DNA of 64,000 nucleotides from the NCBI RefSeq assembly GCF_025999835.1, contig NZ_AP025628.1, forward strand, positions 3,286,001 to 3,350,000, in the 5' to 3' direction. The notes under the pieces are model-generated. The model did no database searches. It worked only from the letters and a program-made list of their open reading frames with translations, and had not been told where the DNA came from. The translations under genes were made by a program, and so were the position numbers. This document shows positions 24,194 through 54,198 of this stretch, one piece after another. The number at the start of each line of letters is the position of its first letter. Within the stretch, counting starts at the first letter, position 1. The stretch comes from Caldinitratiruptor microaerophilus (GTDB lineage Bacteria; Bacillota; Sulfobacillia; Symbiobacteriales; ZC4RG38).

Positions 24194-25701
<1,508 letters not shown>

Positions 25702-29270: not shown

Positions 29271-29978
29271 ATGCCGAAGCACGGGAAGCGTTACCGTGAG
29301 GCCGCACAGAAGATCGACCGGGGCACCCTCTACGACCCCGCCCAGGCCATCGCCCTGGTGAAGCAGGCGGCGCCGGCGAAGTTCGATGAGACCGTCGAGG
29401 TCGCGGTCCGCCTGGGCGTCGACCCCCGGCACGCCGACCAGCAGGTCCGTGGCGCCGTCGTCCTCCCGGGCGGCACGGGGAAGACCCGCCGGGTGCTCGT
29501 CTTCGCGAAGGGCGAGAAGGCGAAGGAGGCGGAGGCGGCCGGGGCCGACTACGTCGGCGCCGAGGACCTCGTCCAGCGGATCCAGGAGGGCTGGCTGGAC
29601 TTCGACGTGGCCGTCGCGACCCCCGACATGATGGGCATGGTGGGCCGCCTCGGCAAGATCCTGGGACCGCGTGGCCTCATGCCGAACCCGAAGACCGGCA
29701 CGGTGACCTTCGACGTCGCCAACGCCATCCGGGAGATCAAGGCCGGTAAGATCGAGTACCGGACGGACAAGGCGGGCATCGTCCACGCGCCGATCGGCAA
29801 GGTGTCCTTCGACGAGGGTCGCCTCCTGGAAAACTTCCGGACCCTCATGGACGCCCTGATCAAGGCCCGGCCGGCGGCGGCGAAGGGACAGTACCTGAAG
29901 AGCATCACGGTGTCCTCGACGATGGGTCCGGGCATCAAGGTGAACCCGGCCCGCGCCGTGGCGGCGCCGGAGCGATGA
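29271..29978 (+). CDS. rplA: 50S ribosomal protein L1
   Basis: 235 aa. Typical segments are [64 protein letters not shown] and [14 protein letters not shown]1 forms the stalk over the E site and represses its own mRNA in many bacteria. The ATG at 29271 follows AAGGAGGG. The genes that normally come next (rplJ, rplL, rpoB) are not in this window. Confidence 0.98.
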
Positions 29979-30362
29979 GCGGAGAGGCCGCCGGGCCCAC
30001 CCCCGGCGGCCTCAGCCTTCCGGCCGGCGGCGGCCGGTCGGCGATGGCCGGCCGGAGGCGGCCGGGCCGCAGCGGCGGTCTCCCGGCAGCCGCGGTCGCC
30101 CTGCCCTGGTGGTCTGACCACCTGGAGGCCGCCCGGAGCGTGCGATTTTGTTTGCGTGGGCACGAACGTGCGCCGACACGACGATAGTTTGCGGATTTTT
30201 AACCCAAGCGCCCTTGATTTTGCATCTCGCCCGTAGTATTCTGAAGGCAACAAGAAGCCCAAACACCTTGCGGTCGTGCAGCCAGCGGCTGGAAGTCTGC
30301 GGGTGCGGGCTCCGGCCTGCCGGTGAGTACACAGGTCGGGTAGAAAAAAGGAGGCACTTGCC
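29979..30362 (+). other. 384-bp gap after rplA with hairpin and promoter
   Basis: A perfect 10-bp stem (29986-29995 with 30002-30011, 6-nt loop) eight bases after the rplA stop probably ends the rplKA message, without a T tract. A promoter for the 53-aa gene is at 30214-30242 (TTGATT, 17 bp, TATTCT). In the expected order this region would hold the L10 leader; I could not match that structure with confidence. Confidence 0.5.
30214..30242 (+). promoter_or_regulatory. Promoter of the 53-aa gene
   Basis: TTGATT at 30214-30219 and TATTCT at 30237-30242 with a 17-bp spacer. Confidence 0.55.
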
Positions 30363-30524
30363 ATGGCCGTTTCCCGTGAGGTCAAGGAGCTTCAGAACCG
30401 CCTGGACGATCTGCTTGAGCGCTGGCTCACCGCCACGCCTGCGGAGCGGGCCCAGCTAGTCCTCGAGAAGATGCGCCTGGAGGAGGCTCTAGAGGCCGCC
30501 AAGCGGCGGGCCAAGGCGAGCTGA
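30363..30524 (+). CDS. 53-aa coiled-coil protein of unknown function
   Basis: The ATG at 30363 is preceded by AAAAGGAGG with correct spacing, and a promoter lies 120 bp upstream, so expression is well supported despite the short length. The product begins [20 protein letters not shown] and continues as a charged, Leu- and Ala-rich pair of helices. It has no Cys, no signal peptide and no membrane segment. It resembles a small dimerising or adaptor helix hairpin. No family recognised. It lies alone between rplA and the queD operon. Confidence 0.7.
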
Positions 30525-30971
30525 GGCGGAAGCTGCCCGCGTACGCTCCCTTGGTGCATCCGGGATACGTGGCCGGTGGCCACAGCGGCAGGGGCAAAAC
30601 TTCCTGCGGCTGTGGCCTCGGCGCGTCTTGAGGCGGCCGGGGGCTGCAGGGGCTCCGGGGCTCTGCGGGCGCGCCCGCGACGGGCGCCGGCGGGTGCAGC
30701 GGGTGCGGCTGGCTTTCCCCCCACGGGTGTGCTACACTGGCCGTGGCGGCAGGGAACCCGGGTGCACGGCGCCCGGGCGATCCCTGCGTCCGCGGTCGCC
30801 GCACACCCGCGTCACCAAAACGGCAGCTCTTCGGGCTGTCAGCGACGCCGGGCAGGAGTAGCCGCCCGGCGTCGGACGTTCGGGCCCCACCCCGGGCGCG
30901 ACACCGGCCGGGGCCGCCCACGGCAGGGTCGCGGCGGGCCGCGCATCCTACACGGCGAGGGGGGCCCGGCG
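30525..30971. other. 447-bp gap upstream of the queD operon
   Basis: Contains a perfect 10-bp stem, GACGCCGGGC (30844-30853) with GCCCGGCGTC (30864-30873). I looked for a preQ1 riboswitch, which often precedes queuosine genes, and did not find the type I pattern (stem, CUA-rich loop, A-rich tail). No clear promoter hexamers were fixed; TACACT near 30732 could be a -10. Confidence 0.4.
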
Positions 30972-31448
30972 GTGCCGGTCCTGCTCGAGGTCACGAAGGT
31001 GTTCACGTTCGACGCGGCCCACCGGATCGACGAGTACGTCGGCAAGTGCCACGACCTGCACGGCCACACCTACCGCCTGGAGCTCACGGTACGGGGGCCC
31101 CGGGATCGCCGGGGTATCGTCGTCGACTTCCTCGACCTGAAAGCGATCTTCAAGGAGTTCTACGAGGCGGTCCTCGACCACAAGTTCCTGAACGAGACCC
31201 TTCCGACCGCGAACACCACGGCGGAGAACATCGCGGTCTGGTTCTTCAACTACTGGGAGCGGTACGTGAGCCCCCGCTACCCCCACGTCTGGCCCGAGCG
31301 CATCCGGCTCTGGGAGACGCCGACCTCCTACGTGACCCTGAGCCGGGCCGACTGGGAGGCCGGCAAGGCCGACGGCGACGCCGGCTGGCCCCCGGCGGAG
31401 GCGGCCCGCGGCGCGGAGGCCGAGGGGGGGCCGGCCCGGTGCGGATGA
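30972..31448 (+). CDS. queD: 6-carboxy-5,6,7,8-tetrahydropterin synthase QueD
   Basis: 158 aa of the PTPS/QueD fold. Zinc ligands His17 (FDAAHR), His30 and His32 (LHGHTYRL) and the catalytic Cys26 in CHDLHGH, the spacing that marks QueD rather than eukaryotic PTPS, are present. It converts 7,8-dihydroneopterin triphosphate to 6-carboxytetrahydropterin, the second step toward 7-deazaguanines. The GTG at 30972 follows GAGGGGGG. The C-terminal 25 residues are a low-complexity Ala/Glu/Gly tail. Its stop overlaps the queE start (ATGA), so the two are coupled. Confidence 0.93.
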   Translation: MPVLLEVTKVFTFDAAHRIDEYVGKCHDLHGHTYRLELTVRGPRDRRGIVVDFLDLKAIFKEFYEAVLDHKFLNETLPTANTTAENIAVWFFNYWERYVSPRYPHVWPERIRLWETPTSYVTLSRADWEAGKADGDAGWPPAEAARGAEAEGGPARCG

Positions 31449-32089
31449 CGGAGATCTTCCTCTCCCTGCAGGGGGAGACGTCGTCGGTGGGGCTACCGAC
31501 CATCTTCGTCCGCACGAACCGCTGCAACCTCCGTTGCACTTACTGCGACACGACGTACGCCTTCTACGGCGGCTACTCCATGAGCATCGACGAGATCATG
31601 GACCAGATCCGCTCCTACGGCTACAAGCGGGTCTGCCTCACCGGCGGCGAGCCGCTCGTGCAGCCCCGGGAGGAACTCCAGGCATTCTTCGATCGCCTCG
31701 CGGAAGAGGGGTACGAGCTGTCGGTGGAGACCGGCGGCTCCATCGACATCGGCCAGTGGCGGCTCCATCGCCCCCGGCAGCGGTGGATCGTGGACATGAA
31801 GGTGCCCTCCTCGGGCGAATCGCACCGCATGTGCTTCCAGAACCTGGAGCAGGTGGCCTACCCGGACGAGGTCAAGTTCGTCTGCGGCAGCGAGGAGGAT
31901 TACCTCTGGTCCCGGCACCTGATCGAGCGGTACCGCCTCCAGGGTCGGGCGCACATCCTCTTCGGGCCGGTCTGGGGGCAGCTGGAGCCCCGCCTCCTGG
32001 CCGGGTGGATCCTGCGCGACCGGCTCGACGCCCGCCTGCAGCTGCAGATCCACAAGATCATCTGGGACCCGGCCGCCCGGGGGGTGTGA
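31445..32089 (+). CDS. queE: 7-carboxy-7-deazaguanine synthase QueE (radical SAM)
   Basis: 214 aa. It begins with the QueE hallmark EIFLSLQGETSSVGLPTIFVR and carries the radical-SAM Cys triplet CNLRCTYC (Cys27, 31, 34) for a 4Fe-4S cluster. Further motifs are CLTGGEPLVQ and ETGGS. It rearranges 6-carboxytetrahydropterin to 7-carboxy-7-deazaguanine (CDG). The ATG at 31445 overlaps the queD stop; a GTG at 31439 is an alternative. CDG would normally go to QueC; here the next genes, 2 bp and 1 bp apart, are a LuxE-like enzyme and a LuxC-transaminase fusion. Confidence 0.95.
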   Translation: MTEIFLSLQGETSSVGLPTIFVRTNRCNLRCTYCDTTYAFYGGYSMSIDEIMDQIRSYGYKRVCLTGGEPLVQPREELQAFFDRLAEEGYELSVETGGSIDIGQWRLHRPRQRWIVDMKVPSSGESHRMCFQNLEQVAYPDEVKFVCGSEEDYLWSRHLIERYRLQGRAHILFGPVWGQLEPRLLAGWILRDRLDARLQLQIHKIIWDPAARGV

Positions 32090-32091
32090 CG

Positions 32092-33180
32092 GTGGAACGG
32101 GAGGTCCTCGCCTTCATCCGGGAGCCGGGGGACGAGGCGGCCTTCGACGACCTCGCCCTGCGGCTGTTCCGCTGGCAGCGGGAGCGCAATCCGGTGCTGG
32201 CCTCCTTCTGGGCCGGCGCCCGGCCCCGGCACTGGCGGGAGGTGCCGCCCCTGCCCGTCGGCGCCTTCAAGCAGGCGGCCGTAGCCTGCGGCGACCCGGC
32301 CCGGGCCGTGGCGGTCTTCGAGACCTCCGGGACCACCCGGGGACCCGAGGTGCGGGGCCGGCACCACTTCTTCACCCTCGACCTCTACGACGCGGCGCTC
32401 CTCCCAGTGTTCGAGCGCTACCTGCTGCCCGACGGCGCCCGGCTGCCGATGTTCATCCTGACGCCGCCGCCGGAGGCGGCACCCCACTCGAGCCTGAGCT
32501 ACTACTTCGGCGTGATCCGCCGGGAACTCGGCGGGCCCGGCAGCCGCTTCTTCTGGGACGGCGGCGCCGGCGACCTCCTCTATGAGGCACTTGCCCGGGC
32601 GCTGCGCGAGGCGGAGGCGGCGGGCACGCCGGTCGTCCTCCTCGGGACGGCCTTCGCCTTCGTGCACTTCTGTGACCGGGCCCGGCAGGAGGGCTGGCGG
32701 TTCCGGCTCCCCCCGGGGTCCCGGGCGATGGAGACGGGCGGCTTCAAGGGGCGCTCCCGGGAGCTGCGCCAGCCCGAGCTGTACGCCCTCATGGCGGAGG
32801 TCCTGGGCATCCCCCCGGCACGCATCGTGAACCAGTACGGCATGACCGAGCTCTCCAGCCAGTTCTACGAGCCGAACCTACGCGACCCCCGGTACGCCGG
32901 CTTCCCCCGCCCGAAGCAGGGCGCCGCCTGGTGCCGGGTCGTGATCCGGGACCCGGAGACCCTGGCCGAGGTGCCCGACGGCGAGGTGGGGCTGATCGAG
33001 GTCGTCGACCTCGCGAACGTGGGCTCGTGTGCCTTCCTGCTCACGCAGGACCTGGGGCGGAAGGTCCCGGGCGGCTTCGAGGTGCTCGGGCGGGTGCCGG
33101 GAGCGGCCCCGCGGGGCTGCTCCATCGCGGCCGACATCGTCCTGGGCGGGAGCGGACGTCACCCGGGGGAGGGCGCCTGA
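32092..33180 (+). CDS. LuxE-type acyl-protein synthetase (carboxylate-activating enzyme)
   Basis: 362 aa from the GTG at 32092, two bases after the queE stop. It belongs to the LuxE/PaaK branch of adenylate-forming enzymes: the phosphate-binding loop FETSGTTRGP, the QYGMTELSSQFYE adenylation motif and a C-terminal RGCSIAAD, whose Cys343 corresponds to the acyl-accepting Cys of LuxE. Known LuxE activates a fatty acid with ATP, loads it on this Cys and passes it to the reductase LuxC. Here the tight operon with queD and queE suggests that the carboxylate substrate may be CDG instead; that is inference. Fatty acid as substrate is the conservative alternative. Confidence 0.85.
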   Translation: MEREVLAFIREPGDEAAFDDLALRLFRWQRERNPVLASFWAGARPRHWREVPPLPVGAFKQAAVACGDPARAVAVFETSGTTRGPEVRGRHHFFTLDLYDAALLPVFERYLLPDGARLPMFILTPPPEAAPHSSLSYYFGVIRRELGGPGSRFFWDGGAGDLLYEALARALREAEAAGTPVVLLGTAFAFVHFCDRARQEGWRFRLPPGSRAMETGGFKGRSRELRQPELYALMAEVLGIPPARIVNQYGMTELSSQFYEPNLRDPRYAGFPRPKQGAAWCRVVIRDPETLAEVPDGEVGLIEVVDLANVGSCAFLLTQDLGRKVPGGFEVLGRVPGAAPRGCSIAADIVLGGSGRHPGEGA

Positions 33181-33181
33181 G

Positions 33182-35884
33182 GTGGACGCCTTCTGGCTCC
33201 CCGGTCTGGCCGGTGTGCCCACCCGCACCCTCCGGGTGGGCCGGGCGGAACTCACCGTGCCGGACCTGACCCCGGCGCACCTGGAGCACCTGAGCACCAC
33301 GCTCCTCGAGAACCGCCGCCGCCACCTCGCCGGGCGGAGGACGGCGGAGATCCTGGCCGCGCTGGAGGCCGTGGCGGCGCGCTGGCGCGACCCCTCTTAC
33401 CCCCTGCGCCGGGCGGCCGAAGAGTGGCTCCCGGCAGTCACGGGCTACGCGCCCGCGATGGTCGCCGAAGGGCTCCGCGCCCAGGTGGAGCGGGCCGCCG
33501 GCCCCGCGCTCCGGGCGCTCCTGGCCGCCGAGCTGCCCGAGGGTGCCCTCGACGGCTTTGTCCCCCACCCCGGCGGCAGCGGGTGGACCCGGGCCTTCGG
33601 GCCGGAGCTGACGGGTTTCGTGTTCAGCGGCAATGTCCCCGGCATCCCGGCCTTTCACCTGGCGACGGGCCTCCTCATCCGGTCCGCCTGCCTGGCGAAG
33701 ACCGCCACAGGGGAGCCGCTCTTCGCCGCGCTGTGGTGCCGCTCCCTGGCGGAGGTCGACCCGGGTCTCGGGGCCTGCGTGGCGGCGGCCTGGTGGCCCG
33801 GTGAGGCCGCCGACCTCCACCAGGCCGCCTTCCGGCGGGCGACGGCCGTCGTGGCCTTCGGCAGCGACCCGAGCCTGGCGGCCCTGCGCCCGCACCTCCC
33901 GCCGGGTTGCCGCTTCGTAGCGCACGGGTCACGCATGAGCCTCGGGGCGATCGCCCGGGAGGCCATGACGCCGGCAGGCCTTCCGGACCTGGCCGGGCGC
34001 GCCGCCCGGGACGTGGCCTTCTACGACCAGCAGGGGTGCGTATCGCCGCACGCCATCTTCGTCGAGGAAGGGGGCGAGCGATCCCCCGCCGACTTCGCCG
34101 CCGCCCTGGCCGCCGCCCTGGAGCGCCTGCAGGGCGTGTGGCCGCGGGCGGCGCTGGGTCCCGAGGACGCGGCGGACATCCAGGTGGCCCGCGGGGAGTA
34201 CCGGTTCGTGCCCGGCGCCCGAATCTGGACCTCGCCCGGCTCCACCGCCTGGAGCGTGGTGTACCTCCCGCAGCCGGGGCTCGAGGCATCGACCCTGGGC
34301 CGCTTCGTCTTCGTCCACCCGGTGCCGGACCTGGCGGCCATCGCCGGCCTGGCGGCTCCCTGGGCCGGGGTGCTCCAGACCTGCAGCTACGCCGGCCCGC
34401 CCGAGCGGGGCCGGGCGCTGGCCGCGGCCCTGGCGCCCCTGGGCCTCAGCCGCCTCTGCCCCGTCGGCCGGGCTCAGGAACCGGCGCCCGCCTGGCACCA
34501 CGACGGCAGCCCCGTGCTCCTGCCGCTCCTGCACTGGTGCGACGTGGAGGCGCCGGTGCAGGGCGCCGTCCGGGAGGAGGACGTGCCCGCTCCGGCCCGC
34601 GGCGGTCCGGCCGGGGGCGACCTGAAGGTCCTGCAGTCCCGCCACCTCCTGCACTCCGAGCACGACTTCCGGATGGCGCGGGAGAAGGGGCCGGTCGTCA
34701 TCGTCCGGGGCGAGGGGTCCACCGTCTGGGACTCGGACGGCCGGGCCTACCTGGACGCGCAGGCAGGGCTGTGCCTGGTCAACGTCGGCTACGGGCGACG
34801 GGAACTGGCCGAGGCGGCGCGCCGGCAGATGGAGGCCCTGCCCTACTACCACACGTACTGGCGCTTCGGCAACGAGCCCGCCGTCCGGCTCGCGGCCCGG
34901 CTGGCCGAGCTGGCGCCGCCCGGGCTGGAGCGGGTGTACTTCACCCCCGGCGGTGCCGAGGCGGTGGAGGTGGGCATCAAGCTGGCGCGGGCATACCACC
35001 GGGCCCGCGGCGAGCCCGGCCGTCACAAGATCCTGGCGTTCCGCAACGCCTACCACGGGTCGACCTACGGCGCGCTGTCCGCCACCGGTCTGGCACCCCA
35101 CCGCGACCCGTTCGGGCCGCTGGTGCCGGGATTCGTGCACGTCGAGCCGGGTGACCTGGCCGCCCTGGAGGCGGCCCTGGCAGCGGAGGGGCCGGAGACG
35201 GTGGCGGCCCTGGTCGCCGAGCCCATCCCGGCCGTCGGCGGCGTCACCGTGCCGCCTCCGGACTACTGGCCCCGGGTCCGGGCGCTTCTGGACCGGCACG
35301 GCGTCCTCCTCGTCGCCGACGAGGTGCTGACCGGCATGGGCCGCTGCGGGACGGTGTGGTGCCTGGAAGGGGTGTACGGGGTCGTCCCGGACATCCTGGC
35401 CACGGCGAAGGGGCTGACGTCGGGCTACCTGCCGCTCGGGGCCACGATCGTCCACCGGCGCATCGCCGGCGCCCTGGAGGCGGCCGACCTCCCCTTCCTC
35501 CACGGCCACACCTACTCCGGGCACCCCGTGGCGTGTGCCGTGGCCCTGGCCGCCGTGGACATCCTCCTCCGCGAGGACCTGCCCCGGCGGGCAGCCGAGC
35601 TGGGCGCACGGCTCATGGACCGCCTCCGGGCCGCGGGCAACCCCCACTTTGCCGACGTCCGGGGCCAGGGGCTCCTCATCGGCGTGGCCCTGCCGTGGCC
35701 GGACGGGACCCAGTTCCGGGTCGAGGAGGCCTGCTTCCGGCGGGGGGTCATCATCGGCGTGTGCCCGTACACCCCCGTCCTGATGCTGACGCCGCCCCTG
35801 ACCATCCGGGAGGAGGAAGTCGACCGCCTCGTCGCCGTCGTCGACGAGGCGGTACGGGAAGTGGGGGCGGGGGCGCCCCGGTAG
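33182..35884 (+). CDS. Fusion of LuxC-type acyl reductase and class III aminotransferase
   Basis: 900 aa from the GTG at 33182, one base after the luxE-like stop. Residues 1-455 are a LuxC reductase: NAD(P)-binding region FVFSGNVPGIPAFHLATGLL and the catalytic Cys286 in YDQQGCVSPHAIFV, which takes an acyl group from LuxE and is reduced to an aldehyde. A linker of about 30 residues follows, then from about 483 a full class III PLP aminotransferase: FTPGGAEAVEVGIKLAR, PLP-contacting Asp713 (VADEVLTGMGR) and Schiff-base Lys743 (TAKGLTSGY). Both halves keep their catalytic residues. The fusion would turn a carboxylate, once activated, into a primary amine without releasing the aldehyde. A shift in frame or assembly error is unlikely because the frame is continuous. 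Confidence 0.9.
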   Translation: MDAFWLPGLAGVPTRTLRVGRAELTVPDLTPAHLEHLSTTLLENRRRHLAGRRTAEILAALEAVAARWRDPSYPLRRAAEEWLPAVTGYAPAMVAEGLRAQVERAAGPALRALLAAELPEGALDGFVPHPGGSGWTRAFGPELTGFVFSGNVPGIPAFHLATGLLIRSACLAKTATGEPLFAALWCRSLAEVDPGLGACVAAAWWPGEAADLHQAAFRRATAVVAFGSDPSLAALRPHLPPGCRFVAHGSRMSLGAIAREAMTPAGLPDLAGRAARDVAFYDQQGCVSPHAIFVEEGGERSPADFAAALAAALERLQGVWPRAALGPEDAADIQVARGEYRFVPGARIWTSPGSTAWSVVYLPQPGLEASTLGRFVFVHPVPDLAAIAGLAAPWAGVLQTCSYAGPPERGRALAAALAPLGLSRLCPVGRAQEPAPAWHHDGSPVLLPLLHWCDVEAPVQGAVREEDVPAPARGGPAGGDLKVLQSRHLLHSEHDFRMAREKGPVVIVRGEGSTVWDSDGRAYLDAQAGLCLVNVGYGRRELAEAARRQMEALPYYHTYWRFGNEPAVRLAARLAELAPPGLERVYFTPGGAEAVEVGIKLARAYHRARGEPGRHKILAFRNAYHGSTYGALSATGLAPHRDPFGPLVPGFVHVEPGDLAALEAALAAEGPETVAALVAEPIPAVGGVTVPPPDYWPRVRALLDRHGVLLVADEVLTGMGRCGTVWCLEGVYGVVPDILATAKGLTSGYLPLGATIVHRRIAGALEAADLPFLHGHTYSGHPVACAVALAAVDILLREDLPRRAAELGARLMDRLRAAGNPHFADVRGQGLLIGVALPWPDGTQFRVEEACFRRGVIIGVCPYTPVLMLTPPLTIREEEVDRLVAVVDEAVREVGAGAPR

Positions 35885-35926: not shown

Positions 35927-37006
35927 TCAAGCCAGCCACTGCCGGACAAGCGTGAGGAACTGCGTTAGCCAGCCATAGATCCGGTCGACCCAGGCGCGCA
36001 GGAGCGGCGTGTCCGTCCCCAGGAACGCGTGGAGTTCCGCCCGGGCCTTGGCCAGCTGGTCGTGGACGCCCTGCCAGTCGACGTTCGCTGCCTTCATCTT
36101 CTGCACCAGGACGACGAGCTCGTCGACCATCTCGTCGCTGAGTCTGACGCCCAGGTCGGCGGCGACGCTCCGAATCAGCCGGCGGATCGACTCGGGGGAG
36201 TTCGACGGGTGCTGCGCCATCCGCTCCTTCAACCGGGTCATGAAGGCGGCGGCCAGGTCGGGGTTGCCCACCGCCCGGGCGAGCCGGATCGTCTGCGCCA
36301 CCTCGGCCGGCGCCACCGCCTTGCGCTCGGGCGCCAGCGCCGTCCCGGCGGCGGTCTCGTATGCCTTCAGGATGCCGGCCAGGGCGGCGGTGCCGGAGAC
36401 ATCGAACGGAGCGGCCACCGTGACCTCGGCGTCCCGGATGCCGGCCGTGGCGAGCGCGTTCTCGTACATGGCCGGGGTGACGGTCGTGATGTGACGCGTC
36501 GTGACCCGGATGCCCGATCCGGACGGCGCCGGCCGCACCAGCACGGACGAGATCGCCCGGGAGCCGATGGTGCGGGCGTCGAAGTGGGCGCCCAGCAGCC
36601 GGTGCTCCTCGGCGTTCGTGACGGTCAGTTCGACGGCTCCCTCCGGGACGGAGAGCAGCGCCGCGAGGGCCGCCTTTTCCCCGGCCGTGAGGTCGGCTCC
36701 CCAGGTCACGACGACCTTCCCCCCGGTGCGGTCACCACCCCCGGCGGCCGCCCCGCCCTTCGCCGCCGCAAGCGCCGTGGACGCCCCGCGCACACCGAGC
36801 CGGGCGTCTGCTTGCACCGCGCTACCGGATACCGCCTGCAGCCTGGCGCCGGAGCCCCCTACCAGCTTCACGCCGGCCCCCAGCGTCGCCCGGGCTCCGA
36901 GGCCGATCCCTGCCCGGCTTCCCGCAGCCCCGGCCGCCACGGGCAGCAGCAGCGCAACGCCGGCCATGGCCGCCGCACTCAACCACCTGCTCGTTCGGCG
37001 GGTCAT
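35927..37006 (-). CDS. DUF1002 family secreted protein (YpuA-like)
   Basis: 359 aa with a signal peptide (MAGVALLLPVAAGAAG) and a low-complexity Gly/Ala region to about residue 95. The DUF1002 domain follows: WGADLTAGEKAALAALL, VTNAEEHRLLGAHFDARTIGSRAISSVLV, then VTPAMYENALATAGIRDAEVTVAAPFDVSGTAALAGI. The family is widespread in spore formers (YpuA of Bacillus); its function is unknown, with links to envelope or germination suggested by its distribution only. It is convergent with the luxC fusion and divergent from the SDR at 37232. Confidence 0.88.
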   Translation of the reverse strand: MTRRTSRWLSAAAMAGVALLLPVAAGAAGSRAGIGLGARATLGAGVKLVGGSGARLQAVSGSAVQADARLGVRGASTALAAAKGGAAAGGGDRTGGKVVVTWGADLTAGEKAALAALLSVPEGAVELTVTNAEEHRLLGAHFDARTIGSRAISSVLVRPAPSGSGIRVTTRHITTVTPAMYENALATAGIRDAEVTVAAPFDVSGTAALAGILKAYETAAGTALAPERKAVAPAEVAQTIRLARAVGNPDLAAAFMTRLKERMAQHPSNSPESIRRLIRSVAADLGVRLSDEMVDELVVLVQKMKAANVDWQGVHDQLAKARAELHAFLGTDTPLLRAWVDRIYGWLTQFLTLVRQWLA

Positions 37007-53546: not shown

Positions 53547-54198
53547 GTGCGCCCGGCGTGGGCGTTGGCTCGGTGCGGCCAAGGCAGCACAAGCCCACTG
53601 CCCAAGGCAACTGCGTTGCCCGTGAGGGAACGTGGGGAGGAAGCCGGCGGCCAACCCACCGCCCACGGACCACGAACCGGGGGCGAGGCTGTCCCACTCG
53701 GGTGAACTGGTCAAGGACAGCGAAAGCCTAAGGCTGCCAAGGGGTGGGCCAGTAGATACTGCGGGCGCGGGGAGAAGGTCGGCGCCCGTACCCTGGAGAT
53801 CTGGCGGACATCACACGGGAACCAGATTGGAAACCGCACCTGGCAAGCAACCCGGATCGAGAGGTCCCGCTGAACCGCCAGAAGTTAGCAACAGCCACAG
53901 TACGCACGCCGGGGAGCCGACGGAAGAGGGGCCACGCGGCGGGTAGTGGCCGACATCGGCACGTCCTAAGTGCGCGATTGACAGCAGCCTTCCCCGAACG
54001 GGGACCCGCTTGCGGAAGAGACCGGTGAAGCCCGAGCGGTCCGCAAGATGGTCGAGCACCTCCGGCACGAGCGGACCTGGGAGCCTGTCGGGATGATGGT
54101 GGTCCACCACGGGCTAAGCTCAGCGAACCGCCCGGTGGGGACCCGCATCCCGGGTGGCGTGGGAGGGGAGGGCCGGAGACAGGTCCTCCTATCCCGAT
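53547..54198 (+). mobile_element. Group II intron, bacterial class C, without reverse transcriptase gene
   Basis: The sequence begins GTGCG, the group II 5' consensus, two bases past the terminator tail. It shows stretches I recognise from class IIC introns: GAACGTGGGGAGGAAGCCGG, GGGTGAACTGGTCAAGGACAG, AGATACTGCGGGCG and GGAAACCGCACCTGGCAAGC in domain I, and near the 3' end a domain V (about 54125-54166, AACCGCCCGGTG with CCGGGTGGCGTG) and domain VI ending CTATCCCGAT. IIC introns typically insert behind terminator hairpins, which is the case here. At about 650 nt it lacks the maturase/RT frame (full elements are about 1.9 kb), so it is an internally deleted copy. The exact 3' end is uncertain by a few bases. 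Confidence 0.75.

Follow-up and report, generated by a model that had tools for sequence, protein, structure and literature searches.

QueC and QueF form the only described route from 7-carboxy-7-deazaguanine (CDG) to preQ1 (7-aminomethyl-7-deazaguanine) (PMC11130926), within a canonical queuosine (Q) pathway that runs FolE-QueD-QueE-QueC-QueF and then Tgt-QueA-QueG/H. A four-gene operon, queD-queE-luxE-luxC::aminotransferase, lies in a 64,000-nucleotide stretch of Caldinitratiruptor microaerophilus DNA (NZ_AP025628.1, positions 3,286,001 to 3,350,000; 'the window'). It shares the start of the canonical pathway, with QueD and QueE leading to CDG, and its genome shares the use of the product through tgt and queA, but QueC and QueF are missing. 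From the sequence evidence we consider it likely that the operon makes preQ1 without the nitrile preQ0; compared with the canonical pathway, the proposed route would have no nitrile and would use an ATP-dependent carboxylate reduction followed by a transamination.

Three other kinds of system are close enough to be compared. The Lux fatty-acid reductase (LuxE plus LuxC, PDB 7xc6) has the same two families, the same acyl-cysteine sites and the same order of steps up to the aldehyde. The LuxE of the operon is distant from it, however (33.9 bits to 7xc6 chain E), and the operon has no luxD or luciferase genes, while it does have an aminotransferase and a tie to queE and queD; the acid proposed as its substrate is an aromatic deazapurine. 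PigE and PtTamA/PtTamH, from prodigiosin and tambjamine biosynthesis, likewise proceed from thioester to aldehyde to transamination and have reductase and transaminase fused, but their substrates are fatty or alkyl and their role is in secondary metabolism. PigE is a thioester reductase-transaminase fusion whose reductase has been described as AAR/GluTR-like (PMC8341465), as against LuxC in the operon, and TamA with TamH converts fatty acids to amines by the same logic (PMC9594044). Finally, salvage of preQ1 or queuine through the QueT/QrtT or YhhQ/QPTR transporters also explains tgt and queA without QueC and QueF, but salvagers need neither queD nor queE, and both are kept in the operon.

Going from CDG to preQ1 amounts to turning a carboxylate into a primary amine, so that LuxE, LuxC and an aminotransferase acting in sequence would fit the chemistry that is needed. 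CDG formed by QueD and QueE would be adenylated at its carboxylate by the LuxE homologue, using ATP, and held as a thioester on Cys343. LuxC would receive the acyl group on Cys286 and reduce it with NAD(P)H to 7-formyl-7-deazaguanine, and the class-III aminotransferase would turn this aldehyde into the primary amine, preQ1, which Tgt would insert into tRNA and QueA elaborate. Together, the three activities would stand in for QueC and QueF and bypass preQ0. The substrate, the order of reactions and the product are what we infer for the LuxE-LuxC-aminotransferase set from the observed genes, residues, linkage and absence of QueC and QueF. A literature search, with preprints and most subscription papers outside its reach, returned nothing that links LuxE with queuosine or mentions 7-formyl-7-deazaguanine.

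The genome of the window, a single 3.6 Mb contig that is 97.9% complete, carries tgt and queA next to each other (560 and 472 bits). QueF has no match in it, and the QueC model has only two, of 22-23 bits and over its first 60 positions. One of these proteins is LarE, at 350.7 bits for a cut-off of 150, and the other is ThiI, at 364.7 bits for a cut-off of 264.5. By these scores QueC is absent from the genome. With QueD, QueE, Tgt and QueA present and QueC and QueF missing, the pathway has a hole exactly at the QueC-QueF steps. The first-pass annotation had named, as evidence against its route, queC and queF elsewhere in this genome together with a cassette that is frequent where queDE is missing; the opposite was found. 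The TGT of this genome carries GGLSVG. Queuine-salvaging TGTs typically have GG[LS][AS]G and the preQ1-type site is GGLAVG (PMC11570991); the valine of the window's TGT is shared with the latter, unlike in the salvaging enzymes.

The four genes are tightly packed on the + strand with spacings of -4, +2 and +1 bp, queE overlapping queD by 4 bp, and the reading frames that the first-pass annotation gave for them are correct (Table 1). In a Pfam/NCBIfam scan, QueD matches PTPS at 118 bits and exceeds the cut-off of the QueD model TIGR03367 (97.1 against 89.25 bits). The best family by far for QueE is TIGR04349 at 251 bits, under that model's cut-off of 300, and Radical_SAM is matched over its cut-off at 56.9 bits. 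The LuxE homologue reaches only 28.7 against the NCBIfam long-chain LuxE model, far under the cut-off of 550. In the fusion protein, the LuxC thioester reductase covers approximately residues 52-448 and the class-III pyridoxal phosphate (PLP) aminotransferase residues 499-890. The three catalytic residues proposed at first sight are correctly placed and conserved (Table 1), with Cys286 aligned to the FYDQQ-A-C site of LuxC in 7xc6. An AlphaFold2 model of the LuxE homologue (mean predicted local distance difference test score 89.6) has PaaK and small-acid or aryl-acid ligases as its nearest folds (Z 23-25, root-mean-square deviation about 3), a similarity that allows an aromatic acid substrate and is no proof of one. 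The 7xc6 LuxE is not among the 50 best structural matches listed for this model, which carries no evidential weight. A scan of the operon for sigma-70 promoters and terminators gave no match.

Table 1. Genes of the operon and codons of the proposed catalytic residues, in window coordinates
Feature	Position	Strand	Remarks
queD, 6-carboxytetrahydropterin synthase	30972-31448	+	GTG start; C-x3-HGH site (GKCHDLHGH)
queE, radical-SAM 7-carboxy-7-deazaguanine synthase	31445-32089	+	CxxxCxxC at residues 27-34
luxE-like carboxylate-adenylating / acyl-protein synthetase, 362 aa (putative)	32092-33180	+	PF04443 LuxE 49.5 bits (cut-off 24.9)
Cys343 codon, proposed acyl-thioester site of the LuxE homologue	33118-33120	+	invariant in 35 LuxE relatives
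luxC::aminotransferase fusion, 900 aa	33182-35884	+	PF05893 LuxC 236 bits (over cut-off); PF00202 Aminotran_3 308 bits
Cys286 codon, LuxC-domain thioester site (FYDQQGC)	34037-34039	+	C in 68/68 LuxC sequences
Lys743 codon, PLP Schiff-base lysine (TAKGL)	35408-35410	+	K in 53/53 cassette aminotransferases

The gene arrangement is not due to chance, as it recurs in further genomes and families. Within the class, nine of 101 genomes have LuxE relatives, the window's genome counted. The order queD-queE-luxE-luxC-aminotransferase is found in two genomes of the same family (G001, G002) and one of another family (G006), and a fourth genome (G007) has luxE-luxC-aminotransferase beginning at a contig edge; in all four, luxC and the aminotransferase are separate neighbouring genes. 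Yet another order, queE-queD-luxE, is seen in G068, from another family. Neither QueC nor QueF was found by score in any of these five genomes.

Scanning 84,980 species genomes gave 269 LuxE relatives, and the best 80 of these 269 loci were analysed. LuxC adjoins LuxE in 73 of the 80, and an aminotransferase does so in 54. Three Verrucomicrobia have queE-aminotransferase-luxE-luxC (L091, L120, L122), and a fourth (G147) has a split set: luxE-x-luxC-queD (L125), with a QueD that exceeds the QueD cut-off, and a separate queE-aminotransferase pair (L188) whose aminotransferase is 51% identical to that of L122. All four Verrucomicrobia loci among the 80 are tied to Q genes. The association of these genes with queE or queD, which the first-pass annotation had seen in one genome, recurs with varying gene order in three or more lineages: Symbiobacterium-like Bacillota, a further family of the same class, and Verrucomicrobiota. 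A minimum of four changes on the LuxE tree is required to account for this linkage; two of the linked loci, L056 and L057, belong to the lineage of the query and do not count as independent cases. By chance, about 0.3 queE neighbourhoods would be expected (80 loci covering 1.21 Mb, genomes of about 4 Mb). Other surroundings of the pair were also met: luxE-luxC followed by a short-chain dehydrogenase/reductase (SDR) gene, with a CRISPR-like repeat array nearby, in a genome that lacks tgt, queA and queE (L026, 7843-11166), and luxE and luxC with an apparent metallo-beta-lactamase-fold hydrolase gene between them (L024, 99-3664).

The pattern extends to whole genomes. In 50 of the surveyed genomes with this LuxE type (G101 and G102 are identical to G002 and G001), TGT is present in 49 and a QueE-like match anchored at its start in 47. 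QueF is present in none, the best score being 31 bits against 87-105 for true QueF, a count that stands without a background QueF rate for Myxococcota and Gemmatimonadota. Because TGT and QueE are nearly always found, genome incompleteness does not explain the missing QueF. The two weak QueF matches (at most 31 bits) that were scanned, from G088 and G068, are FolE. The genomic pattern of linkage, retained QueE and missing QueF supports the nitrile-free route from CDG to preQ1 that was first suggested from the window alone; the enzymatic conversion we continue to infer. As a separate observation, most of the Myxococcota genomes searched (L060-L135) contain two full-length TGT genes, of about 500 and 460 bits.

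The aminotransferases fall into two sets. Identity is 53-78% among the enzymes of the window, G001, G006 and G007 and 42-79% among those from Verrucomicrobiota, Myxococcota, UBP4, Eremiobacterota and L127, as against 27-37% between the two sets. Given this divergence, the step that follows the aldehyde was probably taken over on two occasions, each time by a different class-III subfamily.

Several observations weigh against a nitrile-free route, in addition to the lack of a background rate for QueF noted above. The main fact that the model leaves unexplained is a group of verrucomicrobial QueC-like genes. Strong QueC matches occur in five of the 50 genomes; two are fragments in Myxococcota metagenome-assembled genomes (MAGs), and the other three are full-length proteins (106-116 bits to PF06508) in Verrucomicrobia that carry queE-aminotransferase-luxE-luxC. 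These genes (L142 8704-9360, L143 8816-9475, L144 8951-9607) lie away from that locus, and in L143 and L144 they adjoin what reads from the sequence as a ubiD-like gene. The proteins are divergent, with PP-loop and cysteine cluster intact, and the single one that was scanned reaches 89, below the NCBIfam QueC cut-off of 150.3. Within the class, QueF is found in none of the nine LuxE-positive and 17 of the 92 LuxE-negative genomes, a difference short of significance (Fisher p = 0.35). Searches for a preQ1 riboswitch came back empty, both at the Rfam gathering score in the window and its relatives and in a permissive scan of positions 29950-31050. The remaining points concern individual genomes of the class and are taken up with the explanations that they favor.

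One possible explanation is that LuxE, LuxC and the aminotransferase make an amine from some other acid, fatty or not, and share the queDE operon by accident, with Q made from salvaged preQ1. A genome with luxE-luxC-SDR and without tgt, queA or QueE (G088) shows that the LuxE-LuxC pair has other uses, and another (G004) combines luxE-luxC with tgt and queA but contains neither queE nor an adjoining aminotransferase, no queE remnant being found beside its luxE-luxC. The pair by itself is therefore not exclusive to a preQ1 route, and LuxE-LuxC pairs are also named in papers on flagellin-glycosylation islands. Two genomes of the same order (G003, G005) have tgt and queA but none of QueE, QueC, QueF and LuxE, so for Tgt salvage can be a sufficient source, and the aminotransferase-LuxE-LuxC set of Myxococcota does not adjoin queDE within 10 kb. 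However, an accidental association is hard to reconcile with a queE/queD linkage that arose more than once in different orders and that includes every Verrucomicrobia locus among the 80, with cassette genomes that uniformly lack QueF and nearly always have QueE, or with queDE genes that would be superfluous for a pure salvager. We regard this explanation as improbable.

A second possibility, to which we give slightly less weight still, is that the enzymes do use CDG, but that 7-formyl- or 7-aminomethyl-7-deazaguanine goes to DNA or to a small molecule while tRNA Q depends on salvage. Phage 7-deazaguanine DNA modifications exist (PMC6884629), and the QueC-like gene of the three Verrucomicrobia would be compatible with such a branch, as would G006, a 91% complete MAG in which the whole operon is present and tgt and queA were not found. 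Against this, the operon contains no DNA-modification or natural-product genes, tgt accompanies the cassette in all but one of the 50 genomes, and 7-formyl-7-deazaguanine, once transaminated, is preQ1 itself. Very unlikely is a partial replacement, in which a QueC or QueF too divergent for the models remains active, with the LuxE set in a helper role or supplying a side branch: the verrucomicrobial QueC-like proteins, under the cut-off yet with their motifs intact, would suit it, but every QueC-model match in the window's genome is LarE or ThiI, QueF has no match there at all, and control genomes behave as expected.

Elsewhere in the window, a gene for a DUF1002 protein (35927-37006, - strand, 220 bits) directly follows the operon. 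Positions 24195-25701 contain a SAM (S-adenosylmethionine) riboswitch (81.9 bits) upstream of a PLP-dependent O-acetylhomoserine-sulfhydrylase-like gene, and a Group II intron D1-D4-3 match of 59.8 bits lies at 53616-53786.

Beyond the single operon, and with less assurance than for the operon itself, we favor the view that this is a second, nitrile-free de novo preQ1 pathway spread across Bacillota, Verrucomicrobiota, Myxococcota, Gemmatimonadota, Sumerlaeota and others, in which the aminotransferase was recruited on two or more occasions. Pathway surveys sort genomes by the presence of QueC and QueF. Should the proposal hold, a large number of Myxococcota, Gemmatimonadota and Verrucomicrobiota would have to be classed as makers of Q instead of users. 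The enzymatic nitrile steps would then be dispensable, and primary metabolism would include a function for a LuxE/LuxC pair that is remote from bioluminescence.

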